A stretch of 64,000 nt of DNA, taken from NCBI GenBank assembly GCA_000017645.1, contig CP000781.1, positions 1,206,001 through 1,270,000 of the forward strand. The letters are read 5' to 3'. The notes below the pieces were generated by a model. It did not search any database and was not told the DNA's origin. It worked only from the letters and a program-made list of their open reading frames with translations. Below are positions 5,491-64,000 of this stretch, piece after piece. This DNA is from Xanthobacter autotrophicus Py2 (lineage in GTDB: Bacteria > Pseudomonadota > Alphaproteobacteria > Rhizobiales > Xanthobacteraceae). Positions within the stretch are counted from its first letter, which is position 1, and every line of letters starts with the position of its first letter. The position numbers and the translations under genes were made by a program.

Positions 5491-5502
5491 TGGCGCCTCG
5501 GT

Positions 5503-6624
5503 TCAGCGATCGACGATGGAGGGAGCGGGGTCGTTGGCCGGCAGCACCGTATTGTTGACGCTGACCTGGGACCCGTTGTGCAGCTTCATCTGCCCGGCGG
5601 CGACGATCTGGTCGCCCTCCTTGATGCCTGATAGGACGGCGATCTGGTCGCCCCGCGTCGCGCCCGTCTTCACGAAGACCTGACGCGCGGCGAGGCCTGT
5701 GGCCGAGCCCTCCTTCTTCTCCACCACGAAAACGATGTCGCCATACGGATTGGCCGTCACGGCCGTCTGCGGCACGGTAACGAACGCGTCCGGCGTTCCC
5801 ACAGCGACCTCGACAGTGGCGAACATGCCGGGGGTGAGGCGGTGATCGTCGTTCCTGAACTCGGCGCGCAGTTGCACGTTGCGCGAGGTGACGTCCACCT
5901 TGGGGCTGATGGCCGTCACCGTCCCCTCGAAGGCCTGGCCGGGATAGGTGTCCACCGTGGCCTTCACCGTCTGGCCCGTCTTCACCTCGGCGAGGGCCTG
6001 TTGCGGCAGGTAGAAGTCGATGAAGATGGGGTTGAGGGACTGGAGCGTCACCACCGCCGTGCCCGCGCTCACATACTGGCCGAGATCGACGGAGCGGATG
6101 CCGAGCCGGCCGGAAAAGGGCGCCTTCAGCGTCTTCTTGTCCACCACCGCCTGCTGCTCGGCCACCTGGGCCAGCGCCTTCTTGAGGTTTGCGGTGTCGC
6201 TGTCGATGGTTGCCTGGCTCACCGCGTGGATCTTCAACTGCTCCTGGTCGCGGTTGAGGATGATGGCGCTGACGTCCGCAGTCGCCTTCAGGGCGGCGAG
6301 ATTGGCCACCTCCTGCTCGTCGCGCAGTTGAAGGAGGACCTGCCCCTCGCGCACCTCGTCACCAGACTTGAAATTGATCTTCGCGACCGTGCCGGAGCTC
6401 TCGAGCGCCAAGTCTGCCCCCGCTTCGGCGCGCACGCTGCCCACCGCCTTGACGGTGGACTGCCAGGGCGTGAGGCCAGCCACCGTGGTCGCGACGGTCT
6501 GCGGCGGGTCGCGCAGCGAGGCCAGCGCCTGCTTGATCATGCTCGCCTTGAAGAGCTGGAAGCCGTATAGCGCCCCGAAAACCAGGGCGACGGCGGCCAG
6601 CATGAGGATCATCCGTTTCTTCAT
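5503..6624 (-). CDS. RND efflux periplasmic adaptor subunit (membrane fusion protein)
   Basis: A 373-residue HlyD/AcrA-type adaptor that links the inner-membrane RND permease to the outer-membrane channel. The start at 6624 is chosen because it begins directly with an uncleaved-anchor or signal sequence (MKKRMILMLAAVALVFGAL). The frame is open further upstream but encodes only an Arg/Pro-rich run. The lipoyl/barrel-sandwich halves (GTVAKINFKSGDEVREG and LKAPFSGRLGIRSVDLGQYV) flank an alpha-helical hairpin rich in Glu/Gln/Lys, followed by a beta-barrel and membrane-proximal domain, in the normal order. The GIRSVDLGQYVSAG segment resembles MexA/MdtA-like adaptors. It lies 73 bp after the channel gene and 12 bp before the permease, so the three are co-transcribed. 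Confidence 0.92.
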   Translation of the reverse strand: MKKRMILMLAAVALVFGALYGFQLFKASMIKQALASLRDPPQTVATTVAGLTPWQSTVKAVGSVRAEAGADLALESSGTVAKINFKSGDEVREGQVLLQLRDEQEVANLAALKATADVSAIILNRDQEQLKIHAVSQATIDSDTANLKKALAQVAEQQAVVDKKTLKAPFSGRLGIRSVDLGQYVSAGTAVVTLQSLNPIFIDFYLPQQALAEVKTGQTVKATVDTYPGQAFEGTVTAISPKVDVTSRNVQLRAEFRNDDHRLTPGMFATVEVAVGTPDAFVTVPQTAVTANPYGDIVFVVEKKEGSATGLAARQVFVKTGATRGDQIAVLSGIKEGDQIVAAGQMKLHNGSQVSVNNTVLPANDPAPSIVDR

Positions 6625-6697
6625 CTGACGTCTCTTCTTGCGGCTGCGGCGCAGGTGGCGTTTTGAGGGCGCAGGGGCGAGGGGTCGTGCGTACCGC

Positions 6698-8245
6698 TCA
6701 GTGGTCCTGGAAATAGCCGGCGTTGGTGCGGGGTTCGGCCTGCGCCGTCTGGTCCACACGGTTCCACCAGCCGCCGCCCAGGGCCTGGAACAGCGCCGCG
6801 GTATCGGTGAAGCGGGCGGCCTGCGCCTTCACCCGCGCGACCACGGCCTGCTGGAAGTTCTGCTCGGCTGTGAGCACCGAGGGATAGGTCACCGCGCCGG
6901 CCAGATACTGGGTGCGGGAGATCTTCACGCTCTCCTGCGCCGCCTTCTCATAGGCGAGCTGGGCCTTCAGCGTGCTGGCATCAGCCTCGATGGCGCGCAG
7001 CGAATCCGCCACGTCGCGGAAGGCGGTGATGACCGTGCTCTTGTATTGCGCCAGCGCCTGCTCGTTGCTCGCGACGGCGGATTCCTTGTCGTGGTAGAGC
7101 GTCCCGCCGTCGAACACCGTCTGTGCGACGCTGCCGGCGATGCTCCAGGCGGCGGTGCCCGGCGAGAACAGGCTGTCGGGGGTGAGGCCGGCCCTGCCGT
7201 AGCTACCGGTGAGCTGAACCTGCGGCAGCATATTGGCCACGTTGACGCCCACGGTGGCGGTGGCCTTGTGCAGGCTCGCCTCCACCGCGCCGATATCGGG
7301 CCGCTGCCGCACCAGCGCGGAGGGGACGCTGACGGGAAGATCGCGCGGCAATGTGAGACTGGCAAGGGTCACGTGCTCGCCCCGATCCTGGCTCGGCAGC
7401 CGGCCGAGATAGGCCATCAGCTGGTTACGCTGCTGGGCGAGCTGCTTCTGCAGCGGCGGCAGGGTCGCCTGGGTCTGGGCGAGATTGGACTGCTGCGATA
7501 GCACGTCGGATTGAGCCACCGCGCCCAGCTCGAACTGGCGCTGGACCAGCTTGAGCTGTTCCTGCTCGGACTTGATGATGTCGTTGGTTGCTTCGATCTG
7601 CGCGCGCAGAGAGGCATCGGTGATGGCCGCCGTCACCACATTCGCGGTGAGGCTGAGATAGGTCGCCTCCAGCTGGAAGCGTTGATAGTCCGCCTGCGCC
7701 TCCAGCGCCTCGACCTGCCGGCGGGTGCCACCCCATACGTCCAGCACATAGCTGACGCTGACCGAGGCGTTGTAGAGATTGTAGGGGCTGGTGTTGCCGC
7801 TCTCGCCCTGGCTCGCCAGCGAGGCGACCTGCCGGGTGGCGCTGCCGCTCGCCGACACCTGCGGAAACAGGGCGCCCTCGCCGGCCAGGGCGTTTTCGCG
7901 TGCCGCCCGCAGCGCAGCCTGGGCGGCGGTCACGTCCGGATGGTTGCGGATCGCCTCCGCGACGAAGGCATCGATCTGCTTGTTGCGGAACACCCGCCAC
8001 CACTCGCCGGGCAGATCGCGACCGCGGAGAAAGACCTGGCGGCTTCCACCATGGACATCCGCCGAGGTCGTAGGACGGGGCGTGCCTTCGGGCAGGTAGC
8101 CGCTGACGCGCGGTGCATCGGGCGCCTCGAAGTCCGGCCCCACCATGCAGCCGTTCATGAGCAGCAGGGAAGCGGCGAAGGCGCCTCCCTTTAGGCAGGG
8201 CGCGAGCCCGGAAAGGGCAAACAGGTCTCGCATGTGTGATGGCAC
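6698..8245 (-). CDS. Outer-membrane efflux channel lipoprotein (OprM/NodT family)
   Basis: A 515-residue TolC-like outer-membrane factor that completes the tripartite pump. The signal peptide ends in a lipobox, LLMNGC, followed by MVGPDFEAPDAP, the typical start of OprM/NodT-family channels. Two repeated coiled-coil segments (ALRAARENALAGEGALFPQ and QAQFEL-like heptads in the first half, then SLHKATATVGVNVANMLPQ and YKSTVITAFRDVADSLRAI in the second) are the structural repeats of the family. It is the first gene of the operon, which is unusual because the channel gene is more often last. Its start is divergent from a TetR regulator gene, and the intervening 107 bp carries two operator-like palindromes. 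An internal ATG a few codons in (MRDLFALSG) is an alternative start. Confidence 0.92.
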   Translation of the reverse strand: MPSHMRDLFALSGLAPCLKGGAFAASLLLMNGCMVGPDFEAPDAPRVSGYLPEGTPRPTTSADVHGGSRQVFLRGRDLPGEWWRVFRNKQIDAFVAEAIRNHPDVTAAQAALRAARENALAGEGALFPQVSASGSATRQVASLASQGESGNTSPYNLYNASVSVSYVLDVWGGTRRQVEALEAQADYQRFQLEATYLSLTANVVTAAITDASLRAQIEATNDIIKSEQEQLKLVQRQFELGAVAQSDVLSQQSNLAQTQATLPPLQKQLAQQRNQLMAYLGRLPSQDRGEHVTLASLTLPRDLPVSVPSALVRQRPDIGAVEASLHKATATVGVNVANMLPQVQLTGSYGRAGLTPDSLFSPGTAAWSIAGSVAQTVFDGGTLYHDKESAVASNEQALAQYKSTVITAFRDVADSLRAIEADASTLKAQLAYEKAAQESVKISRTQYLAGAVTYPSVLTAEQNFQQAVVARVKAQAARFTDTAALFQALGGGWWNRVDQTAQAEPRTNAGYFQDH

Positions 8246-8266
8246 CCCGGTACAACAGCCTGAACC

Positions 8267-8280
8267 GAACCGTTCAGTTC
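8267..8280. promoter_or_regulatory. TetR operator-like palindrome 1
   Basis: GAACCGTTCAGTTC followed by GAT; nearly the same as the site at 8324-8337. It lies close to the start of the efflux channel gene on the minus strand. Two copies of the same half-palindrome in one divergent promoter region are typical for an autoregulated TetR repressor. Confidence 0.6.
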
Positions 8281-8323
8281 GATATACGAGTAGGGCGAGG
8301 CAAGTGGAGAGTCAATATGGACT

Positions 8324-8337
8324 GAACCGTACAGTTC
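8324..8337. promoter_or_regulatory. TetR operator-like palindrome 2
   Basis: GAACCGTACAGTTC, an imperfect inverted repeat (GAAC-y-GTAC-r-GTTC) placed 15 bp before the TetR start codon. With the copy at 8267 it shares the flanking GAT. Probably the autoregulatory operator. Confidence 0.6.
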
Positions 8338-8352
8338 GATTAGATTGAACGC

Positions 8353-8988
8353 ATGTCGGAATGCAACGCTTCATCCCTTGAGCCGCAAGACGCCAGCTCC
8401 CTGAGGCCCAAAGCCCGGGAGGCCCTCGCGGCGGCCCGCGCCGTGTTCCTGGAGGTGGGCTACGACGGCGCCAGCATGGACGCGATCGCGCGCGTCGGTG
8501 CGCTGTCCAAGGCGACTCTCTATGCGCACTTTTCCAACAAGGCCGCCCTCTTCGAGGAACTGATCCGGGTCGAATGCCGGGCGGTGAACGCCAACCTCTA
8601 CGTGCCGGACCCCAAGAGCGCCACCGTTTCGAAGGAGCTGCGCAAGGTGGCGGCCAACTATCGAGGCATTTTCGCGGACCGCGAGGGGCTCGACATCTTC
8701 CGGATCCTGATTCCGGTCGCGCCGCGGTTTCCCCGTCTCGCCCAGGTTTTCAATGATGAAGGGCCAGGTGCCGCGATCCATCAGATCGCGGGCTATCTCC
8801 GTGCGCTGAGTGACGCGGGCCGCCTCCGGATTCCGGATCCCGAACTGGCGGCGCACCAGTTTCTCGCGCTGGTCACCGAGGACATCAAGCTGAGCGGGGC
8901 CCTGGGGTTTCCCCCCTCGAGCGGTCGCGCGGCCGATCGCCTGATCGAGAGCGGCATCGCGATGTTCCTCGGCTTCTACAAGGCTTAG
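8353..8988 (+). CDS. TetR/AcrR-family transcriptional regulator
   Basis: A 211-residue one-component regulator. The N-terminal helix-turn-helix reads MDAIARVGALSKATLYAHF at residues 38-56, the classical TetR pattern ending in Y-x-H-F, followed by SNKAALFEELI. The C-terminal ligand domain contains FRILIPVAPRFP and an LGFY end like AcrR/AmtR C-domain family members. It is divergent from the RND efflux operon and separated from it by two similar palindromes, so it most likely represses the pump genes and itself. The inducer is unknown. Confidence 0.9.
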   Translation: MSECNASSLEPQDASSLRPKAREALAAARAVFLEVGYDGASMDAIARVGALSKATLYAHFSNKAALFEELIRVECRAVNANLYVPDPKSATVSKELRKVAANYRGIFADREGLDIFRILIPVAPRFPRLAQVFNDEGPGAAIHQIAGYLRALSDAGRLRIPDPELAAHQFLALVTEDIKLSGALGFPPSSGRAADRLIESGIAMFLGFYKA

Positions 8989-9233
8989 CCGAATGTTGAA
9001 GGCAATTGATCGAAAGCGTCCCCGGACTCTTCAAGATGGAAGGTCTTCGCGTTGGCGTCGTGTTTAGCCGTGCCGGCAATACGGCGATAACGGAGGGCCT
9101 GGGAAGCACCGGCCTATGAACCCCATTCCAAAGTGCTGAGATCACGGGCCGGCTACTGAGGATATCCCGCACGCCGTATTTCATTCCCTGACGCCAGACA
9201 TCGGGTCTGGAAGGGAATGGAAAGGTTCAGGTC

Positions 9234-10247
9234 ATGGCACTCAAGGCTATCCTGCGCGGGCAACTCGGTTTTGGCGCGGCGCCCCTCGGCAACATGTTCC
9301 GGGACATCCCCGAGGCGGAGGCGCGCGCCACCGTCGAGGCGGCCTGGAATGACGGCATCCGCTACTATGACAACGCACCTTTCTACGGTGCTGGCCTCGC
9401 CGAAATCCGCATGGGCGAGATGCTGGCCGGCAAGCCGCGGGACGCGTTCGTCATCAGCACCAAGGTGGGCCGTATCATCCTCGACGAGATCGAAGACATC
9501 AGCGCCCGCGATCTCGGGGAGAAGGGCGAGGTCTTCAAATATGGCCGCCCCAACAAGATCGTGAACGACTATTCGGAAGACGCCACCTATCGGTCCATCG
9601 AGGACAGCCTCAAGCGCCTGAAGGTCGATCATATCGACATCGCCTTCGTCCATGACGTGGCGCAGGACTTCTATGGCGATGAATGGCTCGGCCGGTTCGA
9701 GGAGGCGCGCAAGGGCGCCTTCCGCGCGCTAGACCGAATGCGCGATGAGGGCGTCATCAAGGCCTGGGGGCTGGGCGTCAATCGGGTCGAGCCCATCGAG
9801 CTGCTGCTGGCGCTGGACGAGCCGCGCCCCGACGGCTTCCTCCTCGCCGGGCGCTACACGCTGCTCGACCATGACCGGGCCTTGCAGCGGGTGATGCCGA
9901 TGGTTCAGGAGCGCGGCCTCGGCATCGTTGTCGGCGGCCCCTACAGCTCGGGCGCCCTCGTCGGCGGGCCCAACTTCGAGTACGCCCCCGTGACGCCTGT
10001 CATGAGCGCGCGCATCGCGGCGATCAAGGCCATCGCCGATCGCTACGGCATCTCCATGAAGGCGGCCGGACTGCAGTTCTCGCTTGCCCATCCCGCGGTG
10101 GCCGCGGTCATTCCCGGTGCCAGCCGTCCGGAGCGGATCGCCGAGGATGGCGCCGCGCTGCGCGAAGCCATTCCTGCCGCATTCTGGGCCGAACTGCGCG
10201 AGCGTGGCCTCGTCAATCCGGCGGCGCCGCTTCCCGTCGCAGGCTGA
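9234..10247 (+). CDS. Aldo/keto reductase
   Basis: A 337-residue (beta/alpha)8 NADP(H)-dependent oxidoreductase. The family tetrad is visible: Asp in GIRYYDNAPFYG, Tyr of the same motif, Lys in STKVGR, and His in DIAFVHDV. The cofactor-binding C-terminal part carries PGASRPERI. The start MALKAILRGQLGFGAAPLGN and the overall layout match the D-threo-aldose 1-dehydrogenase / pyridoxal 4-dehydrogenase-like branch, which oxidises or reduces sugars and aldehydes; the exact substrate cannot be read. A short perfect dyad CCAGAC-N5-GTCTGG at 9194-9210 sits upstream and may be an operator. The LysR gene on the other strand is convergent, so regulation by it is possible but not shown. Confidence 0.9.
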   Translation: MALKAILRGQLGFGAAPLGNMFRDIPEAEARATVEAAWNDGIRYYDNAPFYGAGLAEIRMGEMLAGKPRDAFVISTKVGRIILDEIEDISARDLGEKGEVFKYGRPNKIVNDYSEDATYRSIEDSLKRLKVDHIDIAFVHDVAQDFYGDEWLGRFEEARKGAFRALDRMRDEGVIKAWGLGVNRVEPIELLLALDEPRPDGFLLAGRYTLLDHDRALQRVMPMVQERGLGIVVGGPYSSGALVGGPNFEYAPVTPVMSARIAAIKAIADRYGISMKAAGLQFSLAHPAVAAVIPGASRPERIAEDGAALREAIPAAFWAELRERGLVNPAAPLPVAG

Positions 10248-10263
10248 TCCTGCGATCCCGTCC

Positions 10264-10306
10264 CCGCCACCGCGTCCACAGGCAGCCGCCGCCGACGCGG
10301 TGGCGG
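10264..10306. terminator. Hairpin terminator between convergent AKR and LysR genes
   Basis: A perfect 13-bp stem pairs 10264-10276 with 10294-10306 around a 17-nt loop, between the 3' ends of two convergent genes. Confidence 0.6.
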
Positions 10307-10337
10307 CGTGCGCAGGGGAGCGTGTCGCGTGAGTGGC

Positions 10338-11243
10338 CTAGCCGAGCGCCAAAAACGTCTGCATGCGCGGCACGGCAAAATCCAGGAAGGCCCGGACGCG
10401 GGCGGGCAGGAACTGCGCGCCGCGGAACAGGGCATGGACATCGTCCGTCACGCCGATGTCGGTGTCGGCCAGAAGCTCCACCAGTTCGCCCCGTGCGATG
10501 GGCTCGCGCAGATGGTAGTCGGCGAGCCTGATGATGCCGACGCCGGCAATCGCCATACGGCGAAGCGTGTCGCCGTTATTGACCAGCAGCGACCCGCTCA
10601 ACATGCGCTCGACGATCCGTCCTCCTTCGCGCATGGGCCAGACCGGCATCGCGCGGCGGAAATTGAAGCCGAGGCAATTGTGGTGGACGAGATCTTCCGG
10701 CGTAGCGGGCGTGCCGTGGCGCGCGAGATAGGCGGGGGAGGCGACGATACGCCGCCGCGTCTCGCCGATCTTGCGCGCCATCAGGTTGGAATCCACGAGC
10801 TTGCCCACCCGGATCGCCACATCGGTGCGATCGAGATAGAGATCGACCACCTCGTCCGAGAGCGAGAGATCGACGATCACCTTTGGATAGGCCTCGAAGA
10901 AGGCCGGCAGGACCGGTTCCAGGGCCGCGGAGCCGAAGCTCACCGATGAGGTTACGCGCACAACGCCCTCGGCCTCGGCGCCGCCCTGGGCGATCTGTTG
11001 CTCGGTTTCGTCGAGCTGGCCGAGCAGGGCTTGGCTGCGCTCGTAATAGAACTGGCCCTCTCCGGTCAGCGCCAGCCGGCGGGTCGATCGCTCGATCAGG
11101 CGCACCCCCAGCCGCGCTTCCAGGCGGGCGATCAGCTTGGATACCGTGGAGGGTGTCATCAGCATCAGCCGGGCCGCTTCGGAAAAGCTTCCCGCTTCCA
11201 CCACGCGAACGAACACCATCATCTCGCCGGCGCGGTTGTCCAT
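10338..11243 (-). CDS. LysR-family transcriptional regulator
   Basis: A 301-residue LysR regulator. The start at 11243 (MDNRAGEMMVFVRVVEAGSF) gives the usual N-terminal winged helix with FSEAARLMLMTPSTVSKLI as the HTH. The frame is open upstream but encodes no recognisable domain. The second part is the periplasmic-binding-like effector domain (VRVTSSVSFGSAALEPVLP and further), ending normally. It resembles the large group of LysR proteins next to oxidoreductase genes. It is convergent with the aldo/keto reductase. Its own left-hand neighbour on the divergent side is only a transposase fragment, so its target genes may have been lost or lie elsewhere. Confidence 0.9.
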   Translation of the reverse strand: MDNRAGEMMVFVRVVEAGSFSEAARLMLMTPSTVSKLIARLEARLGVRLIERSTRRLALTGEGQFYYERSQALLGQLDETEQQIAQGGAEAEGVVRVTSSVSFGSAALEPVLPAFFEAYPKVIVDLSLSDEVVDLYLDRTDVAIRVGKLVDSNLMARKIGETRRRIVASPAYLARHGTPATPEDLVHHNCLGFNFRRAMPVWPMREGGRIVERMLSGSLLVNNGDTLRRMAIAGVGIIRLADYHLREPIARGELVELLADTDIGVTDDVHALFRGAQFLPARVRAFLDFAVPRMQTFLALG

Positions 11244-11425
11244 GGCGGACCTTTGATCTGGCTTGACCGAGGGCCGAGACCTAACACGCCATCGGACGGC
11301 CGTCCCGCGATCTGTGAAACCATCTCCCAAATCCAGTGAAAAGCGGCCGTCTAGCACTGCTTTGGCCGATTAACGCATTGATAAGATTGGCTGTTGAGGT
11401 TTGCGCCCGGATTGGAGCGCAGGCC

Positions 11426-11692
11426 ATGGCGAGCTGGGATGAGGCGCTGGGGGCGTTTCTGAAGCCGTTTGTCGCCCTGCTGGGGCACAAGAAGCGACGG
11501 CAGATGTGCCCGCTCTATGTGGCAGGCCTGATCGGTCCGGGTGAGCGCAAGAGCATGCGGCCCATGGCCGAACGCCTTGATCCGGCACGGTACGACCGTT
11601 TCCATCATTTCATCTCGGATGGCCTGTGGGACGAGGTCCCGATCGAGGCCGAACTCGCCCGCACGGCCGATCGCCTCGTGGGCGGAGCCTAA
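11426..11692 (+). pseudogene. IS701-family transposase, N-terminal fragment
   Basis: An 88-residue fragment starting MASWDEALGAFLKPFVALLG and continuing through HKKRRQMCPLYVAGLIG, QPMAERL-like and YDRFHHFISDGLWD, which is the conserved N-terminus of IS701/IS4-type DDE transposases of about 400 residues. It stops after ELARTADRLVGGA, before the first catalytic Asp, so it cannot be active. No matching 3' part was seen elsewhere in the window. It marks the left edge of island 1. Confidence 0.75.
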
Positions 11693-11859
11693 GGGGCTGC
11701 CCACCGGATGGCGGCCCCTTACCTTTTTAGGGGACAATAATCGTCCAGATGCGTCCGGAAACGTTCGCCTAAAGCCAGTGTCACGCTGTGGGGGCGGCGG
11801 TGGGGGTGATGCGAAACAAGCATCAGAAGCCCATTATATTTCGATAGCTTATGTCGTCT
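11693..11859. other. Non-coding left flank of the integrase repeat
   Basis: No gene, clear hairpin or repeat was recognised here. It separates the transposase fragment from the first base of the inverted repeat at 11860. Confidence 0.5.
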
Positions 11860-13255
11860 GATTGGTGGAACCGAGGTCCGACGAACTCCCGTCTGTGAGC
11901 GTCCGACTCCGTCCGTTAAATTCAGTATTTATCAATCAATTGTGCTGCCTCCTGTCCGCGACCGTTCCAGAGCGTCCGCCCAAAGCCAGCTTCTGTGGTG
12001 GGGTTGAAAGTGGGGTGGTATGTTTTGGATCCCGGTGGGGTTGGCTTCCCATCGGAGGGGTATGTGGCACGCGCAACGAACCGGCTCACCGCACGGACCG
12101 TGGCAAACTTGAAGGAGCTGGGCCGCTGCGGACGGTGGTGGGCTCTACCTCCAAGTCGGCCCCACGGGCACTAAGGCATGGCTCTTCATGTTCCGCCGCG
12201 ATGGGAAGCGCCGGGAGATGGGGCTGGGCTCGGCAAGGGACGTGGGGCTCGCTGAGGCCCGCCAGAAGGCCGAGGACGCCCGTCGCCTCACGGCAGAGCG
12301 GCAGGACCCGCTCGAAAGCCGGAAAGCCTCCATGACGCGCCAGAAGGAGGCTGAGGAGGTTCCCTCCTTTGGCGCGTTCGCGGATGCCCTCGTCGAAAAC
12401 ATCGAAGGTGGGTTCCGGAACGACAAGCACGTCTATCAGTGGAAACAGACCCTCGGGCCGGCCTACTGCGCGAAGATCCGTGACAAGAAGCTGGGCGAGA
12501 TCACGACTGATGACGTGCTCGCCGTGCTTCAGCCCATCTGGCAGGAGAAGAACGAGACGGCCTCACGGCTCCGAGGTCGCATCGAAAGGGTGCTGGATGC
12601 CGCCAAGGCCAAGGGGCTGCGCACGGGAGAGAACCCCGCCCGCTGGCGCGGCCACCTCGACACCCTCCTGCCGAAGCGCCAGAAGCTCCAGCGCGGCCAT
12701 CACCCTGCGATGCCCTACACCGAGGTGCCAGCCTTCCTCACCGAACTGCGGACGCGGGAGGCCATGGCTGCGCGAGCGCTGGAGTTCGCCATCCTGACGG
12801 CCGCCCGGTCGGGTGAGGTACTGGGGGCGATGTGGGGCGAGGTCGATCTCAAAGCCGAGGTGTGGACGGTGCCGGCCAATCGCATGAAGGCCGGGCGAGA
12901 ACATCGTGTGCCCCTCGCACCGCCCGCCATTGCGATCCTGAGGGCGCTGGCGGCCCTGCGCCCAGAGGATGACGACAAGGGTGCGTACATCTTCCCTGGG
13001 CAGCGGAAGGGCCGCCCCTTGAGCGGGATGGCCATGGAGATGCTGCTCCACCGCCAGAAGCTGGAGATCACCGTCCACGGCTTCCGCTCGTCTTTCCGGG
13101 ACTGGGCAGCCGAGGAGACGGGCTTCCCACGGGAGATCGCCGAAGCCGCCCTTGCCCATGTCGTGGGGGATGCCACCGAGCGGGCCTATCGCCGGGGTGA
13201 TGCCTTGGAGAAGCGCCGCGAGCTGATGACGGCCTGGGCGGCCCATTGCCAGCCA
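11860..13255 (+). repeat. 1396-bp inverted repeat, copy A (integrase and upstream region)
   Basis: From GATTGGTGGAACCGAG to GCCCATTGCCAGCCA the sequence is repeated in inverted orientation at 21035-22430 with the same length, positions summing to 34290. Where I compared them the copies agree except for a 7-bp block (TTCAGTA at 11921-11927 against GTCCATG in copy B). Identical translations in several frames support near identity over the whole length. Copy A is cut by an IS3 element nine bases after the repeat ends. Confidence 0.88.
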
Positions 13256-13267
13256 GTGGCCGTGTGA
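12064..13267 (+). pseudogene. P4-type tyrosine integrase, copy A (5' frameshift, 3' end supplied by IS)
   Basis: Tyrosine recombinases of the P4/CP4-57 type insert genomic islands. From ATG 12188 the frame encodes 359 residues with a complete catalytic set: Arg in AARSGEVLGA, His-x2-Arg in HGFRSSFRDWA and the nucleophilic Tyr in ATERAYRRGD. The expected N-terminal arm-binding domain begins with GTG 12064 (MARATNRLTARTVANLKELG) in another frame. The two parts join around T12127, where two bases of a codon before ADGGGLYLQV are missing. Translation from the internal ATG would lack about 40 residues of the N-terminal domain. The C-terminus is AHCQPVAV, and its stop codon is the first three bases of the adjacent IS. 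Copy B ends differently. Probably inactive or altered. Confidence 0.85.
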
Positions 13268-13282
13268 CGTTGCCCCCAACTT

Positions 13283-14212
13283 CTATCCAGCTTTGAGTTC
13301 GTTCTGGCGGTTGGATTTGCCCTTTCGGGTGTGCGGGGCGGCGGGGGCAGACGCGGAGCCGCTCATGTTGTGGAGCGTCTGATCCCGCCGCGGGTGGAAC
13401 GTTGAGGCGAAGGCGCTTGGCGTCTGCCATTCGAGCTTCGAGTGCGGTCGGTCGGTGTTGTAATCGACCTGCCATCGGGCGAGGGCGGCCCTGGCCTGGG
13501 ACAGGCTGGAGAACAGCGTCTCGTTCAACAGCTCGTCCCGAAGGCGGCCGTTGAAGCTCTCGATGAAGCCATTCTGCATCGGCTTGCCGGGCGCGGTGTA
13601 GTGCCACTCGACCCGGGCCGCGTCGGTCCAGGCCAGAATGGCATTGGAGGTGAACTCGCTGCCATTGTCGCTGACGATCATCTTGGGCCGGCCGCGCTCT
13701 GCCAGAAGCCTGTCGAGTTCGCGAGCGACCCTGACCCCGGACAGCGAGGTGTCCGCCACCAGCGCCAGGCACTCGCGGGTGCAGTCGTCCACGATGGCCA
13801 GCATCCGGAAGCGGCGGCCATCGGTCATCTGGTCGGCGACGAAGTCGAGTGACCAGCGCTCGTTCGGTCCCATCGGGATCATCATCGGCGCCCGTGTCCC
13901 GATCGCCCGCTTGCGACCGCCTCGCCGGCGGACCATCAGCCGTTCCTCACGGTAGAGCCGGAACAGCCGCTTGTGGTTGACCCGGAAGCCCTCCCGCCTG
14001 AGCAGGACGTGGAGACGGCGGTAGCCAAACCGCCGTCGCTCCTGGGCGATGGCCTTCATGCGCTCACGCAGCGAGGCGTCATTCCCGCGCGTGGCTCTGT
14101 ATCTCATGGTCATGCGGCAGAAGCCGGTGGCTTTACACGCCCGCCGTTCGCTCATCCCGTGATGCTCCACGAGATGGGCGACAGCTCTGCGCTCGGCAGC
14201 GGGCGTCACCAC
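13283..14212 (-). CDS. IS3-family transposase OrfB (DDE integrase domain)
   Basis: OrfB carries the rve/DDE catalytic core. The N-terminal HTH_21 region ([20 protein letters not shown]) is followed by [10 protein letters not shown] with the first Asp, [11 protein letters not shown] with the second Asp, and [17 protein letters not shown] with the catalytic Glu. About 309 residues from GTG 14212 ([14 protein letters not shown]). In this family OrfB is normally made as an OrfAB fusion by -1 frameshifting; the overlap at about 14206-14220 (GGGAAAGAAGTGG on the coding strand) offers the slip region. All catalytic residues are present, so the element may still be active. Confidence 0.9.
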
Positions 14213-14472
14213 TTCTTTCCCAGGAGATCCTTCAGCGCGACGTTGTCCAGCATGGCGTCGGCGAGCATGCGCTTCAGCTTGGCGTTCTCGTCCTCGAGCG
14301 CCCGCAGCCGCTTGGCCTCCGATATGTCCATCCCGCCGAAACGGGCCTTCCACTTGTAGATGCTGGCGTCGCTGACCCCGTGCTTCCGACACAGGTCCGA
14401 GACCGGCTCCCCGGCCTCGTGCTCCTTCAGGATCCCGATGATCTGCTCCTCGGTGAAGCGGCTGCGCCTCAT
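14206..14472 (-). CDS. IS3-family transposase OrfA (HTH protein)
   Basis: An 88-residue OrfA with an N-terminal HTH ([20 protein letters not shown] to [20 protein letters not shown]) and a C-terminal leucine zipper ([17 protein letters not shown]). It binds the terminal repeats and is fused to OrfB by frameshifting. It overlaps OrfB by seven bases. Confidence 0.9.
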
Positions 14473-14536
14473 GTTCTGGTCCTCTCATGGGGCCAGAACG
14501 AACTTCAAGCTGGATTAGCCAGGAGGGGCAACGTCA

Positions 14537-15008
14537 GCTCTGCTGGATCGGCGAAGGCAGCCGCCTGCGGCCGCAAGGGCCCGCTGGGCCCCGCGGCCTG
14601 GAAGGCAATGAGGCCGGCGGCGGCGCCATGGGCCGGGGCAACTCCTCCCGCACCGAGAAGAGACAGCAACCGAGCCACGGCCTTGCGTAAGAAGGGCCCC
14701 ATCTTGCCTTCCCCAGCATAGGCGCGACTTTCGGCCGTTTTCATGAATCGTCAAGGGCCGCCTCGCCCGTGATAGACGGCGAGCGCCCATTCGAGCGTTA
14801 CGCGCATGCTCGGGATCACGCCGGACGCGTTTGGATAGGCAGCATCGCGATTGAGCCACGTCTCGCACTCAAGGCCCCTACTAAAGCGCGCGTGCGCGGC
14901 GGAAGAACAAAGCGCCATCGTCCTGCTTCTTGAGCTTTGCCAGAACACGTCAAACGTGCAATATTGTCGCAGGTCATTCGTTTGCGCGCAATTCGTCGGA
15001 GGAGCGTC
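14537..15008. other. Region between IS and peptidase operon; possible gene remnants
   Basis: No convincing complete gene. On the minus strand a short frame starting at 14744 (MKTAESRAYAGEGKMGPFLR) runs into the IS right end, and another short frame ending at 14751 contains ETWLNRDAAYPNASGVIPSM. They lie back to back and could be the remains of an operon cut by the IS. I do not recognise either. The Shine-Dalgarno sequence of the peptidase gene lies at the right end. Confidence 0.3.
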
Positions 15009-18000
15009 ATGGCCCGCTTGCTGGTCAAGGTGCGCGGGGACGGGCGGGCTTTTGCCCAGGGTTTCAGAGCCAGCGGGCTCGAAGTTCAGCCCATCCTCAC
15101 AATCCCCGCCTCGGCCGCTGGTTCGGCGCTCGCCGAGCAAGACCTCGCGAGGCAAGACCAGTCAACCTGGCTCAAGCTTGTCGACCGTGCCTCCTCCGAC
15201 AATCTCTGGGACGATGCGCACGCCATGCTGAACGGCGCATCCTCCTTCGCCGCAGTGAGCCCGGCGCAGATCGAGGCCGTCGAGCCCGATATCAGCCAGG
15301 CCTGGCCCTGGGACCGGCCGAGCGACGGCGGCAAAGGCGCCGGCCTTCGCGGTGCCGCGGCGCAGGCCGATGTGTGCGCCTTCGACGACCAGGACGGCAG
15401 CGGCGGCAAGGCGTGCGTCCCGCGCCGCCCGGCCTGGAATCTCGATGACGATTTCAGCCGGCTCCGGCGTGCCCGGGACACGGTGGGGGCAGCGCAGACG
15501 AAGATCCGCATCGCCCATCTCGACACCGGCTATGATCCCGGCCACGCCACACTGCCCCGCAATCTGCTGACGTCCCTGCAGGCGAATTTCGTCGCTGGCG
15601 AAGACCCCGCCGACGCCGTCGACCGGATCCCGCCGGGGGAATCGCTGTTCTCCAACCGGGGGCACGGCACCGGCACGCTCTCGCTGCTGGCCGGCAACCT
15701 GATCGACAAGCCGCCGGGGTTTCCGCGCTTTTCGGATTTCCTGGGCGGTGCGCCGCTGGCCGAGATCATCCCGATCCGGATCGCCGACTGGGTCGTGCGT
15801 TTCACCACGGGCACCATCGTGCAGGGCATCGAGCATGCCCGCCGCAACGGCGCGCATGTGCTGTCCATGAGCATGGGCGGCGTGACGTCGCAGGCGCTGA
15901 CGGACGCCGTGAACCTTGCCTATGACACCGGCATGGTCCTCGTCACCGCCGGCGGCAACAACTTCGCGGGGTGGCCAACGCCGAAGACCATCGTCTATCC
16001 CGCACGGCTCAGGCGCGTCATCGCGGCCTGCGGCGTGATGGGAGACGGGCGCGCCTATTCCGGCCTCTCCTCGGGCACGATGCAGGGGAATTACGGCCCG
16101 CGCGAGAAGATGGACACGGCGATCGGTGCCTATACGCCGAACGTCCCCTGGGCGCAGATCGGCTGTGGCACGATCGTCGATATGGATGGCGGCGGTACGT
16201 CGGCCGCCACCCCGCAGGTCGCTGCCGCCGCCGCCCTCTGGCTGGCGCATCACTGGGACGTGGTCAAAGCCTATCCGCAGGCCTGGATGCGCGTGGAGGC
16301 CGTGCGCTTGGCCCTTTTCGGCTCCGCCGCCAAGAGCACCCCGCGCATGGATGCGGCCGAGACCTTCGAGAAGATCGGCCAGGGCGTGCTAAATGGGGAA
16401 GCTGCGCTCGCCATCGCACCGGCACGGGCAGGCGACCTGAGGAAGCTGCCGCCGTCCGAGCCGAGCTGGCCCTGGCTGAGCCTGATCTTCGGCGAGGGCG
16501 GCGTCGAGCTGGCCGCCGGGGCGGATCGGCGGCGCCGGACTATGCTTGCGCTCGAATTGACGCAGATGGCGCAGCGCGTTGCCGCCGTAGAGGAGGCTAT
16601 CCCGTCGCCGGAACGCCCCCCGAACGAGATCGGCTTCGCCGAGCGGGCCCGTTATCTTGAGGCCGCGCTCGATGCCGGCGACCCATCGCAGGCGCTCCGC
16701 GCCGAGCTGGAGCGCCATCTCGACCGCAGCGTGGTGCCGGCCTCTTCAGTCGCGCCGGCGAAGCCGTACCAAGTTCGCCGCAAGATCATCGAGCCGGGCG
16801 CGCCGCCGCGCCGGCTGCGAGTCTACGCGCTCGACCCGGGCATGTCGAAACGGCTCGATACGCTGCCCGTCAACGAGACTGTGCTGACATTGCCATGGGA
16901 CGACCATCCCGAGGCCGGAGCGCGCACACCCGGCCCGCTCCGGCCGGGTCCGGTCGGAGACTATCTCGAGGTGGTCGACGTCGATCCCGCGTCCGGCAAG
17001 GCCTATGAGCCGGTCGATCTCAACGATCCCTGGCTCCTTGCCCAGAGCGGGCTCGAGCCCTCGGAGGGTAATCCGAAGTTCCACCAGCAGATGGTCTATG
17101 CGGTCGGCATGAAAACCATCGGCGCCTTCGAGAAGGCGCTGGGCCGCCGCGCCCTCTGGGCGCCGCACCAGCCGCGCAAGGCCGACGGCACCTATGGCGA
17201 CGCCATCCCCATGCGCCGCCTGCGCATCTACCCGCATGCGCTGCGCGCGCGAAACGCCTATTACAGCCCGACCAAGGTGGCGCTGCTGTTCGGCTACTTC
17301 CCGGCGAATTCGACGCAGAACGATGCAACCGCGCCGGGCAGCATGGTCTTCAGCTGCCTGTCGAGCGACATCATCTCGCACGAGATGTCGCATGCCCTGC
17401 TCGATGGGCTGCACCGCCGCTTCCAGGAGAATTCGAACCCGGACGTTGCGGCCTTCCACGAGGGCTTCGCCGACATCGTCGCGATTTTCCAGCACTTCAC
17501 CATCCCCGAGCTCGTCCGCTTCGAGATCGGCCGCGCCCGCGGGCGGCTCGACGCCGCGACTCTGCTCGCCGGCCTTGCCGCGCAGTTCGGCGAGGGCAGC
17601 GGCATCGGCGGCGCGCTGCGCAACTATCTCAGCAATACAACCCGGGCGCGGCGCTACGCCTCCACAACGGAATCCCACGACCGCGGCGAGATCCTGGTGC
17701 TCGCCGCCTATGACGCCTTTCTTGCCATCGTCCAGCGCCGGACCGCAGACCTCATCCGGATTGCGACGGGCGGAACCGGCATCCTACCCTCCGGCGCGCT
17801 CCATCCCGATCTGGTCGAACGCCTGACCGAGGAGACCTGCAAGGCGGCCGAGCATGTGCTGCGCATGTGCATCCGCGCGCTCGACTACTGCCCGGCCGTC
17901 GATATCACCTTCGAGGAATATCTCCGGGCGATCATCACGGCCGACGTCGACCTCGTTCCGGACGATCCTTACGGCTATCGCGTCGCCTTCATGGAGGCCT

Positions 18001-18683
18001 TCCGGGCGCGCGGCATTCCGATGCGCAGCGTGCGCAGCGTCTCGGTCGAGAGCTTGACCTGGAACACGCCGGAAACGAACAATCCGCCCCGGGTCGCGAA
18101 GGCCTTCGCCCAGATCGATTTCGACCTGGAGCGGCACGCGAGCCACGAGGAAATCGTCGCCGTCAACGAGCGCAATCGCTGGACCCTCTGGCGCACGCTG
18201 GACGAGGCCTTCGCGGCCGACCCCGATGCCTGCCGCGACTTCGGGCTCCTGCCGGACATGCCGCGCTACGATGCGCAGGGGAAAGAGCGGGAGAAAGTCG
18301 CCGGGCGCGCCAAGAGCACGACCACATTCGACGTGTTCAGCGTGCGCCCGGCCCAGCGCATCGGGCCGGACGGCTCGCTGCAACGGACCATCGTCGCCGT
18401 GGTGCATCAGCGCCGCCCCATCGCCTTCGACGAAAAGGACGTGGCGAATGGCTTCTTCTGGTTCCGCAGCGGGGCGACGCTGATCCTCGACGCCAATGGC
18501 GGCAAGCCCGAAATCCGCTACATCGTGCTCAAGACCGGCGACAGCGAACGCCGACAGCAGGTGCAGCGCAGCACCCAGGGGGCGAACCACCTCTCGCCCC
18601 TGCGCGCGCTCTATTTCAGCGGCATGGCCCGCGAGCCCTTCGCGATGATGCATGCCGACCGCGGAGAGCACGATCATGGCTAG
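15009..18683 (+). CDS. Subtilisin (S8) - HExxH metallopeptidase fusion protein
   Basis: A 1224-residue protein without signal peptide or TM segment, so probably cytosolic. The start at 15009 is chosen for the strong GGAGGAG upstream. The first half is a subtilase with its triad intact: D172 in HLDTGYD, H219 in NRGHGTGTLS and S398 in GGGTSAATPQ, plus the oxyanion-region Asn in AGGNNFAG. After an alpha-helical linker (about 480-640) comes a second peptidase-like domain with H791-E-M-S-H795 and E818 in HEGFADIVAIF, the gluzincin (thermolysin-like) zinc pattern. The last 400 residues are mostly helical and unassigned. The stop overlaps the start of the MBL-fold gene by eight bases. A two-protease fusion paired with a metal-dependent hydrolase suggests a processing or conflict system; the substrate is unknown. 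Confidence 0.85.
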   Translation: MARLLVKVRGDGRAFAQGFRASGLEVQPILTIPASAAGSALAEQDLARQDQSTWLKLVDRASSDNLWDDAHAMLNGASSFAAVSPAQIEAVEPDISQAWPWDRPSDGGKGAGLRGAAAQADVCAFDDQDGSGGKACVPRRPAWNLDDDFSRLRRARDTVGAAQTKIRIAHLDTGYDPGHATLPRNLLTSLQANFVAGEDPADAVDRIPPGESLFSNRGHGTGTLSLLAGNLIDKPPGFPRFSDFLGGAPLAEIIPIRIADWVVRFTTGTIVQGIEHARRNGAHVLSMSMGGVTSQALTDAVNLAYDTGMVLVTAGGNNFAGWPTPKTIVYPARLRRVIAACGVMGDGRAYSGLSSGTMQGNYGPREKMDTAIGAYTPNVPWAQIGCGTIVDMDGGGTSAATPQVAAAAALWLAHHWDVVKAYPQAWMRVEAVRLALFGSAAKSTPRMDAAETFEKIGQGVLNGEAALAIAPARAGDLRKLPPSEPSWPWLSLIFGEGGVELAAGADRRRRTMLALELTQMAQRVAAVEEAIPSPERPPNEIGFAERARYLEAALDAGDPSQALRAELERHLDRSVVPASSVAPAKPYQVRRKIIEPGAPPRRLRVYALDPGMSKRLDTLPVNETVLTLPWDDHPEAGARTPGPLRPGPVGDYLEVVDVDPASGKAYEPVDLNDPWLLAQSGLEPSEGNPKFHQQMVYAVGMKTIGAFEKALGRRALWAPHQPRKADGTYGDAIPMRRLRIYPHALRARNAYYSPTKVALLFGYFPANSTQNDATAPGSMVFSCLSSDIISHEMSHALLDGLHRRFQENSNPDVAAFHEGFADIVAIFQHFTIPELVRFEIGRARGRLDAATLLAGLAAQFGEGSGIGGALRNYLSNTTRARRYASTTESHDRGEILVLAAYDAFLAIVQRRTADLIRIATGGTGILPSGALHPDLVERLTEETCKAAEHVLRMCIRALDYCPAVDITFEEYLRAIITADVDLVPDDPYGYRVAFMEAFRARGIPMRSVRSVSVESLTWNTPETNNPPRVAKAFAQIDFDLERHASHEEIVAVNERNRWTLWRTLDEAFAADPDACRDFGLLPDMPRYDAQGKEREKVAGRAKSTTTFDVFSVRPAQRIGPDGSLQRTIVAVVHQRRPIAFDEKDVANGFFWFRSGATLILDANGGKPEIRYIVLKTGDSERRQQVQRSTQGANHLSPLRALYFSGMAREPFAMMHADRGEHDHG

Positions 18684-20265
18684 GACACCGCGACCCTCCG
18701 CCGAGCCCAAGCCGCGTCGGCGCGCATCGCCACGCAGCACGGGCGGTGCCGCGGCCGGACCCGCGGCGGATGCGGCCGCCGCCAAGCCCGGCTTCACCGT
18801 CCGGCACTATTGCCAGGGCATCGGCGACTGCCATCTGCTCAGCTTCCCGCGCGAGGATGGGGGCCGCTATTTCATCTTGATCGACTGCGGCGTCCACTCC
18901 GGTGTCTCCGGTGGCGCCGACAAGATCCGCGAGGTCGTCGCCGACATCGCCACCGTGACCAAGCGCATCGATCTCCTGGTGGTGACGCACGAGCATTGGG
19001 ACCATGTCTCCGGCTTTATGAGCGCCGCGGACGCCTTCGCGGCGATCCATGTGGAGGATGTCTGGTTCGCCTGGACCGAGGATTCGAACGACGCGCTGGC
19101 GCGCGACTTCGACACCTACCGAGGCCAGGCGCTCGCCGCTCTGCAGATGGCCAGCAGCCGATTGGCGGGCCTGAGCGGCGCTGACGCCTCTCTCGGTACA
19201 CTGGGGCGCGAGCTCGGGCAGGTCCTCGGCTTCCATTTCGGCGCGGCCGGCGACAAGGTCCGCAAGGCCCGCAATGCTGCCCGCGACATGGCCAAGGGCA
19301 AGGTGGTGTATCAGCAGCCGGGCGCCGGACCGCTCGCCCTTCCCGGCGTGTCCGGCGTGAAGGTCTATGTGCTCGGCCCGCCGCGCGACCCCAAAGCGCT
19401 CGGTCTCGAGGAGCGTGACAGCGAACTCTACGGCCAGGGCCTCGCCGGCGGCTTCGGGATGGCGATGGCTCAGGCCCTGATGGGATACGCGGCCGGCAGC
19501 TCCGCCGAGGACGACGGCTCACCCTTCGATCCGGAGATCGGCCATTCCCTCGCCGAGATCCTGCCTCTCGCCAGCGGCCCGGCCACGCCGAAGCCGGGCG
19601 ACCTCGCCGTCGCGCGCGCCGCCCCGCTCGTGCAACTGCTCCACGCCCACTACAGCGGGCCGGCAGATGCCTCCGCCGTCGCGCGTGGCAAGAAGGCGAC
19701 CGCCCCGACCGTGAGCGACCAGGGCTGGCGCCGGATCGATGGCGACTGGCTCGGCCTTGCCGCCGATCTCGCCATGCAGCTCGACCGGGGAGTCAACAAC
19801 ACCAGCCTCGTCCTCGCCTTTGAGTTCGGGGACCGTCGCGTCGCACTCTTCGTCGGCGACGCGCAGGTCGGGAACTGGCTTTCCTGGCAGGGTCTGACCT
19901 GGGGCGCGGGCGAGAGCGCCGTGACCGGCCCCGACCTGCTGAAGCGCACCGTCTATCTGAAGGTCGGGCACCATGGCAGCCACAATGCGACCCTGAAGGC
20001 GAAAGGGCTGGAGCTGATGAACCATCCCGATCTCTCGGCCTTCATTCCGGTCAATCAGTTGGATGCCAAGAATATCGGTTGGAATCAGATGCCGTTCGCC
20101 GGCATCCTCGACGCGCTCAGGGTCCACGCGGGTGCCCGGGTGGTGCGGGCCGACGACGACTGGCTGGCAGACTGCGTGGTCCCTCCGGCATTGGCCGGCG
20201 GCGGGGGATCCCTGCGCGCGGTGCGCTGCCGGGCAAAATTATGGGTCGAGTTCGATGTTGCGTAG
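18676..20265 (+). CDS. ComEC-like metallo-beta-lactamase-fold hydrolase
   Basis: A 529-residue protein. The start at 18676 (MARTPRPSAEPKPRR) is supported by a GGAGAG Shine-Dalgarno inside the end of the peptidase gene; the two overlap at 18676-18683. A Pro/Ala/Arg-rich tail of about 35 residues precedes HYCQGIGDCHLLSF, and the MBL metal motif T-H105-E-H107-W-D109-H110 follows. The second part carries FVGDAQVGNW and KVGHHGSHNAT (H432-H433), the pattern of the C-terminal MBL domain of ComEC/Rec2 DNA-uptake proteins and their stand-alone relatives. A central insertion of about 180 residues, rich in Ala/Gly, is not typical. No membrane segments, so it is not a DNA channel. Hydrolysis of a nucleic acid or phosphodiester is a reasonable guess. 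Coupled expression says it works with the protease fusion. Confidence 0.85.
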   Translation: MARTPRPSAEPKPRRRASPRSTGGAAAGPAADAAAAKPGFTVRHYCQGIGDCHLLSFPREDGGRYFILIDCGVHSGVSGGADKIREVVADIATVTKRIDLLVVTHEHWDHVSGFMSAADAFAAIHVEDVWFAWTEDSNDALARDFDTYRGQALAALQMASSRLAGLSGADASLGTLGRELGQVLGFHFGAAGDKVRKARNAARDMAKGKVVYQQPGAGPLALPGVSGVKVYVLGPPRDPKALGLEERDSELYGQGLAGGFGMAMAQALMGYAAGSSAEDDGSPFDPEIGHSLAEILPLASGPATPKPGDLAVARAAPLVQLLHAHYSGPADASAVARGKKATAPTVSDQGWRRIDGDWLGLAADLAMQLDRGVNNTSLVLAFEFGDRRVALFVGDAQVGNWLSWQGLTWGAGESAVTGPDLLKRTVYLKVGHHGSHNATLKAKGLELMNHPDLSAFIPVNQLDAKNIGWNQMPFAGILDALRVHAGARVVRADDDWLADCVVPPALAGGGGSLRAVRCRAKLWVEFDVA

Positions 20266-21004: not shown

Positions 21005-22226
21005 TTATGTCTCCATCCATCGTTCCACAGTCTTTGGCTGGCAATGGGCCGCCCATGCCGTCATCAGCTCGCGGCGCTTCTCCAAGGCATCACCCCGGCG
21101 ATAGGCCCGCTCGGTGGCATCCCCCACGACATGGGCAAGGGCGGCTTCGGCGATCTCCCGTGGGAAGCCCGTCTCCTCGGCTGCCCAGTCCCGGAAAGAC
21201 GAGCGGAAGCCGTGGACGGTGATCTCCAGCTTCTGGCGGTGGAGCAGCATCTCCATGGCCATCCCGCTCAAGGGGCGGCCCTTCCGCTGCCCAGGGAAGA
21301 TGTACGCACCCTTGTCGTCATCCTCTGGGCGCAGGGCCGCCAGCGCCCTCAGGATCGCAATGGCGGGCGGTGCGAGGGGCACACGATGTTCTCGCCCGGC
21401 CTTCATGCGATTGGCCGGCACCGTCCACACCTCGGCTTTGAGATCGACCTCGCCCCACATCGCCCCCAGTACCTCACCCGACCGGGCGGCCGTCAGGATG
21501 GCGAACTCCAGCGCTCGCGCAGCCATGGCCTCCCGCGTCCGCAGTTCGGTGAGGAAGGCTGGCACCTCGGTGTAGGGCATCGCAGGGTGATGGCCGCGCT
21601 GGAGCTTCTGGCGCTTCGGCAGGAGGGTGTCGAGGTGGCCGCGCCAGCGGGCGGGGTTCTCTCCCGTGCGCAGCCCCTTGGCCTTGGCGGCATCCAGCAC
21701 CCTTTCGATGCGACCTCGGAGCCGTGAGGCCGTCTCGTTCTTCTCCTGCCAGATGGGCTGAAGCACGGCGAGCACGTCATCAGTCGTGATCTCGCCCAGC
21801 TTCTTGTCACGGATCTTCGCGCAGTAGGCCGGCCCGAGGGTCTGTTTCCACTGATAGACGTGCTTGTCGTTCCGGAACCCACCTTCGATGTTTTCGACGA
21901 GGGCATCCGCGAACGCGCCAAAGGAGGGAACCTCCTCAGCCTCCTTCTGGCGCGTCATGGAGGCTTTCCGGCTTTCGAGCGGGTCCTGCCGCTCTGCCGT
22001 GAGGCGACGGGCGTCCTCGGCCTTCTGGCGGGCCTCAGCGAGCCCCACGTCCCTTGCCGAGCCCAGCCCCATCTCCCGGCGCTTCCCATCGCGGCGGAAC
22101 ATGAAGAGCCATGCCTTAGTGCCCGTGGGGCCGACTTGGAGGTAGAGCCCACCACCGTCCGCAGCGGCCCAGCTCCTTCAAGTTTGCCACGGTCCGTGCG
22201 GTGAGCCGGTTCGTTGCGCGTGCCAC
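21005..22226 (-). pseudogene. P4-type tyrosine integrase, copy B (5' frameshift)
   Basis: The inverted twin of the integrase at 12064. From ATG 22102 it gives 365 residues with the same complete catalytic residues (Arg in AARSGEVLGA, HGFR, Tyr in ERAYRRGD). It carries the same missing bases at about 22163, which separate it from the GTG-started N-terminal part at 22226. The C-terminus AHCQPKTVERWMET is probably the original end, because copy A changes sequence right after CQP where its flank was rearranged and an IS inserted. Identical frameshifts in both copies mean the duplication happened after the mutation, or that the protein works from the internal start. Confidence 0.85.
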
Positions 22227-22430
22227 ATACCCCTCCGATGGGAAGCCAACCCCACCGGGATCCAAAACATACCACCCCACTTTCAACCCCACCACAGAAG
22301 CTGGCTTTGGGCGGACGCTCTGGAACGGTCGCGGACAGGAGGCAGCACAATTGATTGATAAACATGGACTTTAACGGACGGAGTCGGACGCTCACAGACG
22401 GGAGTTCGTCGGACCTCGGTTCCACCAATC
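21035..22430 (-). repeat. 1396-bp inverted repeat, copy B
   Basis: Partner of the repeat at 11860-13255. The 7-bp differing block is at 22363-22369 (GTCCATG read on the minus strand). Equal lengths and no indel seen. The pair encloses about 7.8 kb with an IS3 element, the peptidase-MBL operon and the Myb-like remnant. Confidence 0.88.
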
Positions 22431-55631: not shown

Positions 55632-55636
55632 TTTTT

Positions 55637-57095: not shown

Positions 57096-57096
57096 C

Positions 57097-63909: not shown

Positions 63910-64000
63910 TCCCCCCTCGCCGGCCGACCATTCGCTGCTCAATCTTCCAGAACGGTAGGGCAATGTCTAACGCTGCGGTTGTGTGCTGTCACGGGTGAGA

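Follow-up and report, generated by a model that had tools for sequence, protein, structure and literature searches.

A thermolysin-like peptidase encoded beside a ComEC-like MBL protein, with a fused subtilase in Xanthobacter: a candidate protease-activated nuclease module

What might a bacterial cell do with two unrelated proteases in one cytosolic chain, encoded directly beside a putative nuclease? This question is raised by a two-gene locus in Xanthobacter autotrophicus Py2 (contig CP000781.1, positions 1,206,001 to 1,270,000; this 64,000-nucleotide stretch is called the window), in which a subtilase-metallopeptidase fusion gene overlaps a gene for a ComEC-like metallo-beta-lactamase (MBL)-fold protein. 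Based on homologues, predicted folds and gene neighbourhoods, we favour, with a probability of roughly 0.58, the reading that the pair is a mobile conflict module, most likely anti-phage, in which the metallopeptidase would open a gated MBL pro-nuclease and the subtilase would form an added layer.

A protease-activated nuclease had already been suggested in a sequence-only reading of the locus. It is a good hypothesis, with an experimental precedent that the earlier reading did not name. The main text of PMC12799240 describes trypsin- and caspase-nuclease pairs (2025) in which two loops obstruct the nuclease site until the protease cleaves them; each cleavage position has a conserved residue, Ile in HamM and Avs1a and Gly (predicted) in CanC. 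According to the same text, the nuclease homologues also co-occur with "other diverse families" of proteases.

Two proteases in one chain

The features of the chain are as follows.

15009 to 18683, plus strand: two-protease chain, 1,224 aa (open reading frame list, domain profiles, fold match, homologue alignment)
15501 to 16328, plus strand: subtilase (S8) domain, residues 165-440 (PF00082; triad D172/H219/S398)
16809 to 18053, plus strand: thermolysin/fungalysin-like metallopeptidase domain, residues 601-1015
17379 to 17462, plus strand: zinc-site motif HExxH...E, from HEMSH (791-795) to E818, kept in homologues
18054 to 18680, plus strand: C-terminal part, residues 1016-1224 (AlphaFold2 model: helices, then a four-strand beta unit)

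The start codon ATG at 15009 fits the homologues, whose alignments begin at residues 1-4; starting instead at the in-frame TTG at 14937 would lengthen the protein by 24 residues. As first reported, the reading frame overlaps that of the MBL gene by eight bases (18676-18683). The first protease domain is a peptidase S8, matching PF00082 with an E value of 4.4e-22 (79.2 bits versus a cut-off of 21.8). For the second domain, neither Pfam M4 nor M36 gave a match over cut-off in the window chain (the homologue L064 reached 19.0 bits, below the cut-off of 22.4), and Foldseek alone returned unrelated folds for the metallopeptidase model, the best at an E value of 0.17. A second look over Foldseek's list yielded an M36/M4 match that places the HExxH...E set in a thermolysin-like fold, so the concern raised earlier, that the second motif might lie outside any peptidase-like fold, was not borne out. 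The C-terminal residues 1016-1224 fall beyond the range covered by most fold matches.

Both active sites are intact at the residues originally assigned. D172, H219, S398, H791, H795, E818 and D822 are kept in 120/120 full-length chain homologues and E792 in 119/120; for each protein these 120 sequences, window protein included, are the best of at least 3,222 (chain) or at least 5,934 (MBL) and are biased to close relatives. The HExxH...E set is also unchanged in 22 divergent metallopeptidase sequences. A chance HExxH motif was rejected, as both the predicted fold and this invariance argue against it.

The chain had been described as cytosolic, and a simple hydropathy rule agreed, finding a hydrophobic N-terminal stretch in 1/120 chain homologues and in 0/120 MBL homologues. 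A secreted protease pair was rejected, as hydropathy shows no signal peptides on either protein. Known M4/M36 members (thermolysin, fungalysin) are mostly secreted enzymes. The chain shares folds and catalytic residues with these and with the S8 family, and differs in holding both in one cytosolic chain. A VEPDI stretch that ends its first 100 residues resembles subtilisin propeptides, a likeness that no profile match supports.

The MBL protein and its predicted gates

The second gene encodes the following features.

18676 to 20265, plus strand: ComEC-like MBL-fold protein, 529 aa (open reading frame list, motifs, model, fold match)
18988 to 19005, plus strand: MBL metal motif HEHWDH (105-110), conserved in homologues
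19858 to 19974, plus strand: further metal ligands D395, H432 and H433, conserved in homologues
19081 to 19305, plus strand: putative insertion 1, residues ~136-210, with conserved F186, F188 and G189 (from low model confidence and conserved residues; boundaries estimated)
19387 to 19785, plus strand: putative insertion 2, residues ~238-370, with conserved P283-F284 and W351-R352..D355 (boundaries estimated)

H107, D109, H110, D395, H432 and H433 are present in 120/120 MBL homologues and H105, where the ComEC-type motif had been recognised to begin, in 119/120; the motifs are also invariant in 65 more divergent sequences. An intact ComEC-like metal site is likewise a feature of the gated pro-nuclease pairs in the main text of PMC12799240. 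The fold and metal motifs are those of the C-terminal MBL domain of ComEC (9ic4). Unlike ComEC, the window protein has no membrane channel part, and it is ~240 residues longer than the ComEC domain. Conserved islands lie in stretches of low model confidence (predicted local distance difference test of 59 at residues 181-190, also low at 251-290 and 331-370), and from these stretches we infer that the extra residues form two insertions.

Two Phe residues, F186 (in LGF.FG) and F284 (in PFD), are kept in 120/120 close MBL homologues. Across the 43 loci used for trees, a 'PF' lies 160-220 residues past the MBL motif in 37, and those lacking it (L063, L064, L066, L070, L071 and L098) are the deepest branches. 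In loci that lack a subtilase, 8 of 11 aligned MBLs keep F at position 186 and 9 of 11 keep it at position 284.

We propose that the MBL is a ComEC-type nuclease kept inactive by the two insertions, which would lie close to the active site. Upon a trigger, the metallopeptidase, as the constant protease of the pair (see below), would cut both insertions; the predicted cleavage sites are at or near F186 and F284. Once released, the nuclease would degrade DNA and stop the infected cell, acting as a suicide module. Large hydrophobic residues are cleaved on their N-terminal side by thermolysin and on their C-terminal side by subtilisin, so either protease could use the Phe sites. The metallopeptidase appears the likelier cutter of the MBL because the Phe sites mostly persist in loci without a subtilase. 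The subtilase would probably activate the metallopeptidase by cutting the linker at ~480-600, which would be a natural site for its action on the partner protease, or would broaden what is cut.

A constant core with exchangeable partners

Of the 40 loci recovered by a genome scan, 17 are titled Mesorhizobium. Subtilase and metallopeptidase occur together in 26/40 and a metallopeptidase without subtilase in 13/40, while L024 ends with its contig. By tblastn, the MBL lies downstream on the same strand in 40/40, although in L009 it runs past the contig end and in L029 the matched frame stops after 219 aa. The constant core is therefore metallopeptidase plus MBL, and the subtilase is an add-on, because the 13 loci without it still carry the MBL. 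The sequence-only reading had taken the fusion and the MBL together as the system; the pairing has held up, the subtilase as part of the core has not. In the tree set, the subtilase is fused to the metallopeptidase in 13/43 loci.

A further architecture came from a profile search, in which the best 120 proteins (P0242-P0361; ~1,120-1,270 aa) matched the metallopeptidase and neither the subtilase nor the MBL. Five printed alignments of these proteins each show two metallopeptidase domains, and by a simple motif count 71 of the 120 proteins have two HExxH motifs, 39 have one and 10 have three. Some tandem relatives carry a precomputed PF01447 annotation, and the named sources of the 120 include Acidobacteriota, Actinomycetota and Pseudomonadota. 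The form was absent from 13 matches in 398 genomes and from the 15 matches listed of 62 plasmid records. The alignments and motif counts suggest that the N-terminal slot of the chain is filled by either a subtilase or a second metallopeptidase copy, the latter often motif-less.

The tandem form bears on a different division of labour, in which the proteases would be the effector, acting on host or phage proteins, and the MBL a guard or cofactor, either regulating them or producing or degrading a small-molecule signal. A two-metallopeptidase chain is what one would expect if proteolysis were the output, and all three active sites are kept in homologues. However, the large extra segments of the MBL, with their conserved islands, suit a cleavage target better than a regulator, and the trypsin- and caspase-MBL pairs act by nuclease activation (PMC12799240, main text); we consider this division of labour quite improbable.

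Neighbouring genes were sorted into classes with labels that we assigned from annotation, five loci being labelled 'none'. Lipases recur: a patatin gene lies directly upstream of the pair in L030, L031, L040, L041, L068, L090 and L091 and near it in L016, L037, L075, L096 and L097; an LCAT-type lipase lies upstream in L070 and L071, and PLD upstream of L065. A Tle1-like DUF2235 gene is found near the pair in L032, L066, L072, L094 and L095, where for loci identified by name only we take DUF2235 to be the Tle1-like family. An S1/P1 nuclease lies upstream of L063 and downstream of L070. In L074 the gene immediately upstream of the pair encodes an SMC-like ATPase, and L092 has a gene of like name in that place.

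A rival reading is an arsenal directed at envelopes or lipids. The MBL would then be a phosphodiesterase for lipid head groups or envelope polymers and would belong, with the metallopeptidase and a lipase, cell-wall hydrolase or subtilase encoded nearby, to a set of hydrolases set free during competition or when cells lyse. This we regard as unlikely. One elaboration of the gated-nuclease proposal is a two-step intracellular protease cascade in bacterial immunity: an infection signal would free the subtilase, which would activate the thermolysin-like peptidase of the same chain, which would open the MBL nuclease, making the core a plug-in executioner. Lineages would then equip the core with one of several first stages (subtilase, second metallopeptidase copy or SMC ATPase) and with varied co-effectors (patatin, Tle1-like, LCAT or PLD lipases). 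We offer the full cascade tentatively, as a rather unlikely scheme.

Other genes were observed near the pair. L010 has a catalase/animal-haem-peroxidase fusion two genes upstream (5768-8575), and L016 an NB-ARC/TPR protein downstream (15975-18956). Two rhizobial plasmids carry extra stand-alone S8 peptidase genes, in L071 beside the pair (2538-15261) and in L077 (5623-7299), both near lysozyme-like or chitosanase-family genes.

Pairing, joint inheritance and spread

The plasmid sample comprised 40 matches listed of 75 records, several of them near-duplicates, and 37 of the 40 hold the metallopeptidase. The MBL is adjacent in 36/37 of these: 34 have a tblastn match on the same strand within 1.6 kb of the metallopeptidase, and in 2 the protein next to it contains HxHxDH and scores weakly against MBL Pfam models. 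All 6 strong metallopeptidase matches (own included) from 398 genomes of the phylum have the MBL; in 385 genomes of the class there were 4 strong matches including our own, 2 others with the MBL and L053 cut by a contig end. Metallopeptidases with an adjacent MBL occur in at least eight phyla. The worry that homologues would mostly lack the MBL partner can thus be set aside, given the MBL in 40/40 genome loci and in 36/37 of the plasmid records listed.

The two genes were also inherited jointly. Across the 43 loci, distances of both proteins correlate (Mantel r 0.884, with 0/5,000 permutations as high), and the protease and MBL trees match in their main groups. The pair moves together, because the gammaproteobacterial L015, a metagenome-assembled genome, nests within the otherwise alphaproteobacterial clade of the window in both trees. 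An adjacent, co-inherited protease gene is also what characterises the protease-MBL pairs in the main text of PMC12799240. Two decayed copies were seen on plasmids: in Rhizobium ruizarguesonis L073 (11248-12512) the MBL is split into two coding sequences, and in Bosea L099 (7001-8492) an unannotated remnant of the subtilase side persists. A phage gene cassette was rejected, as the 14 relatives found among viral contigs in one scan cover parts of the peptidase only, with best segments merely 23-31% identical.

Several observations count against strict pairing, and one argues in part against a mobile defence module. The one clear exception to pairing is the cyanobacterial Kovacikia plasmid L069 (metallopeptidase at 6001-7645), where no [TS]HxHxDH motif was found in the forward frames of 13.6 kb. 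Weak metallopeptidase matches had no MBL match in 7 cases among the 398 phylum genomes (L141-L147) and in 8 among the 385 class genomes (L054-L061); these may be other peptidases. A second metallopeptidase copy sits at the edge of L028, with its partner position beyond the fetched DNA. Finally, the Mesorhizobium copies (e.g., L002 2395-9799) occupy one shared chromosomal site with common neighbours on both sides, namely genes for a CRP-type regulator, a P450-peroxidase fusion and a cyclase-TPR protein. The expectation that the pair sits on islands accordingly holds for some lineages and fails for Mesorhizobium.

Defence genes near the pair

Defence genes were counted in the 22 annotated loci of the 37 plasmid loci, at 13-20 kb each. 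A named defence system lies beside 6/22 copies, 3 of those 6 in one close clade. Hachiman is near the pair in L063 and L068 (PADLOC) and L091 (by name), CBASS by name in L090 and L091, and SIR2 by name in L071 and L072; a PtuA-like (Septu) gene near L090 ranked second to the candidate PDC-M01A profile. GajB-like and PD-(D/E)XK genes (L066) and an N-6 DNA methylase (L070) were left uncounted as ambiguous, as were ThiF/multi-ubiquitin genes (L094) and a caspase-family gene upstream of the pair (L098), which had no PADLOC match. Outside the 22, an LmuB-like gene lies near L028 and an NB-ARC/TPR gene near L016. Three 49-kb control stretches, drawn from three of these plasmids, contain 140 coding sequences and, by name, none of those systems (one VapC toxin was left out of the count).

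The 16/22 annotated neighbourhoods without named defence genes are what would be expected of an ordinary lineage function (e.g., stress proteolysis or turnover) that became mobile by chance in some hosts, and the shared Mesorhizobium site adjoins core-type genes. Such a function is hard to square with a rare, patchy distribution elsewhere (3 strong matches other than our own in the 385 class genomes, 5 in the 398 phylum genomes) and with an adjacent MBL in at least eight phyla; we judge it improbable.

Relation to known systems

According to the main text of PMC12799240, the trypsin pairs of HamMAB, Avs1a, Lamassu and DRT resemble the window pair in having an adjacent protease and a ComEC-like MBL with extra segments, and in joint inheritance, horizontal spread and defence neighbourhoods. 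They differ in that a sensor or core protein carries the trypsin-like domain and the MBL gene is typically upstream; the window has instead a thermolysin-like domain, with or without subtilase among relatives, an MBL downstream and no recognised sensor. The residue type conserved per gate also differs, being Ile there and, by our prediction, Phe here. Neither window protein had a trypsin, HamA, STAND, SMC or RT domain in the profile scans. Canu (KaeCanABC) shares a protease gene upstream of the MBL gene and a stand-alone arrangement, and differs in its caspase fold, its third gene canB and Gly at the gates (PMC12799240, main text). The two window proteins gave no caspase match, and by sequence reading the neighbours of the pair look like transposase, recombinase and cytochrome c.

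PADLOC LmuA was the best defence profile for the window MBL (E value 8.9e-15), and the SMC-like ATPase of L074, its namesake in L092 and the LmuB-like gene near L028 are reminiscent of Lamassu LmuA/LmuB; no SMC-like gene adjoins the window pair, whose neighbours were read by eye. For AVAST type 1, NF041809 (Avs1a MBL) scored 31.4 bits versus a curated cut-off of 420, and over 289 genomes this profile gave 51 weak matches, 0 above cut-off. For 6A-MBL, a name not found in the open-licence literature, NF058524 scored 22.8 bits versus a curated cut-off of 220. Membership in AVAST, 6A-MBL and Canu was rejected on these sub-cut-off scores and the missing caspase match. By its proposed mechanism, the pair would be a variant of the protease-activated MBL nuclease pairs, outside any named system.

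The window MBL clade may already be shown in figure 4A of PMC12799240, whose main text does not contain the words subtilisin, subtilase, metalloprotease, metallopeptidase or gluzincin. No subtilisin- or thermolysin-MBL pair was found among the listed titles and abstract openings of open-licence papers, and relative to that scope the protease classes, the double-protease chain and the exchangeable partners are new. If the proposal is right, no fewer than three, perhaps four, protease folds have been recruited to activate nucleases by proteolysis: trypsin, caspase, thermolysin-like and, as an additional layer, subtilisin. A thermolysin-like peptidase, a type known mainly as secreted, would then work as a switch inside the cell. 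With an exchangeable first stage, one could study directly how varied triggers connect to a shared executioner, and the double-protease form would offer a simple parallel in bacteria to the proteolytic cascades of complement and of cell death in animals.

Genomic setting in Xanthobacter

The pair is flanked by the following features.

11860 to 13272, plus strand: left inverted-repeat arm with tyrosine-recombinase reading frame 12188-13267 (sequence comparison)
21018 to 22430, minus strand: right inverted-repeat arm with tyrosine-recombinase reading frame 21005-22102 (sequence comparison)
13283 to 14500, minus strand: IS3-type transposase genes between the left arm and the pair (open reading frame list, genome search)

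The placement between inverted integrase copies, noted at the outset, is correct: the arms are 1,413 nt long and 99% complementary, and the arm sequence occurs at these two places only in the genome (40 of 147 candidates scored). These arms show the mobility of the window copy. On the right, the sequence is again homologous to two congeners from 22486 and 22631 onwards; on the left, no empty site was found, the adjoining LysR gene having no close counterpart in 13 congeners (best 51%). The gene came and went in the genus, because 1/13 congeners carries a full-length copy, 51% identical and accompanied by an MBL of its own. The IS3-type element has four more near copies in the genome, 84-100% identical over most of its length.

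Elsewhere in the window, a second IS3-type element lies at 54772-55891. On the minus strand are a type I restriction system (HsdS 57097-58449, HsdM 58446-59906, HsdR 60535-63963) and an Mrr-like type IV gene (56163-57170), both 36-44 kb from the pair.

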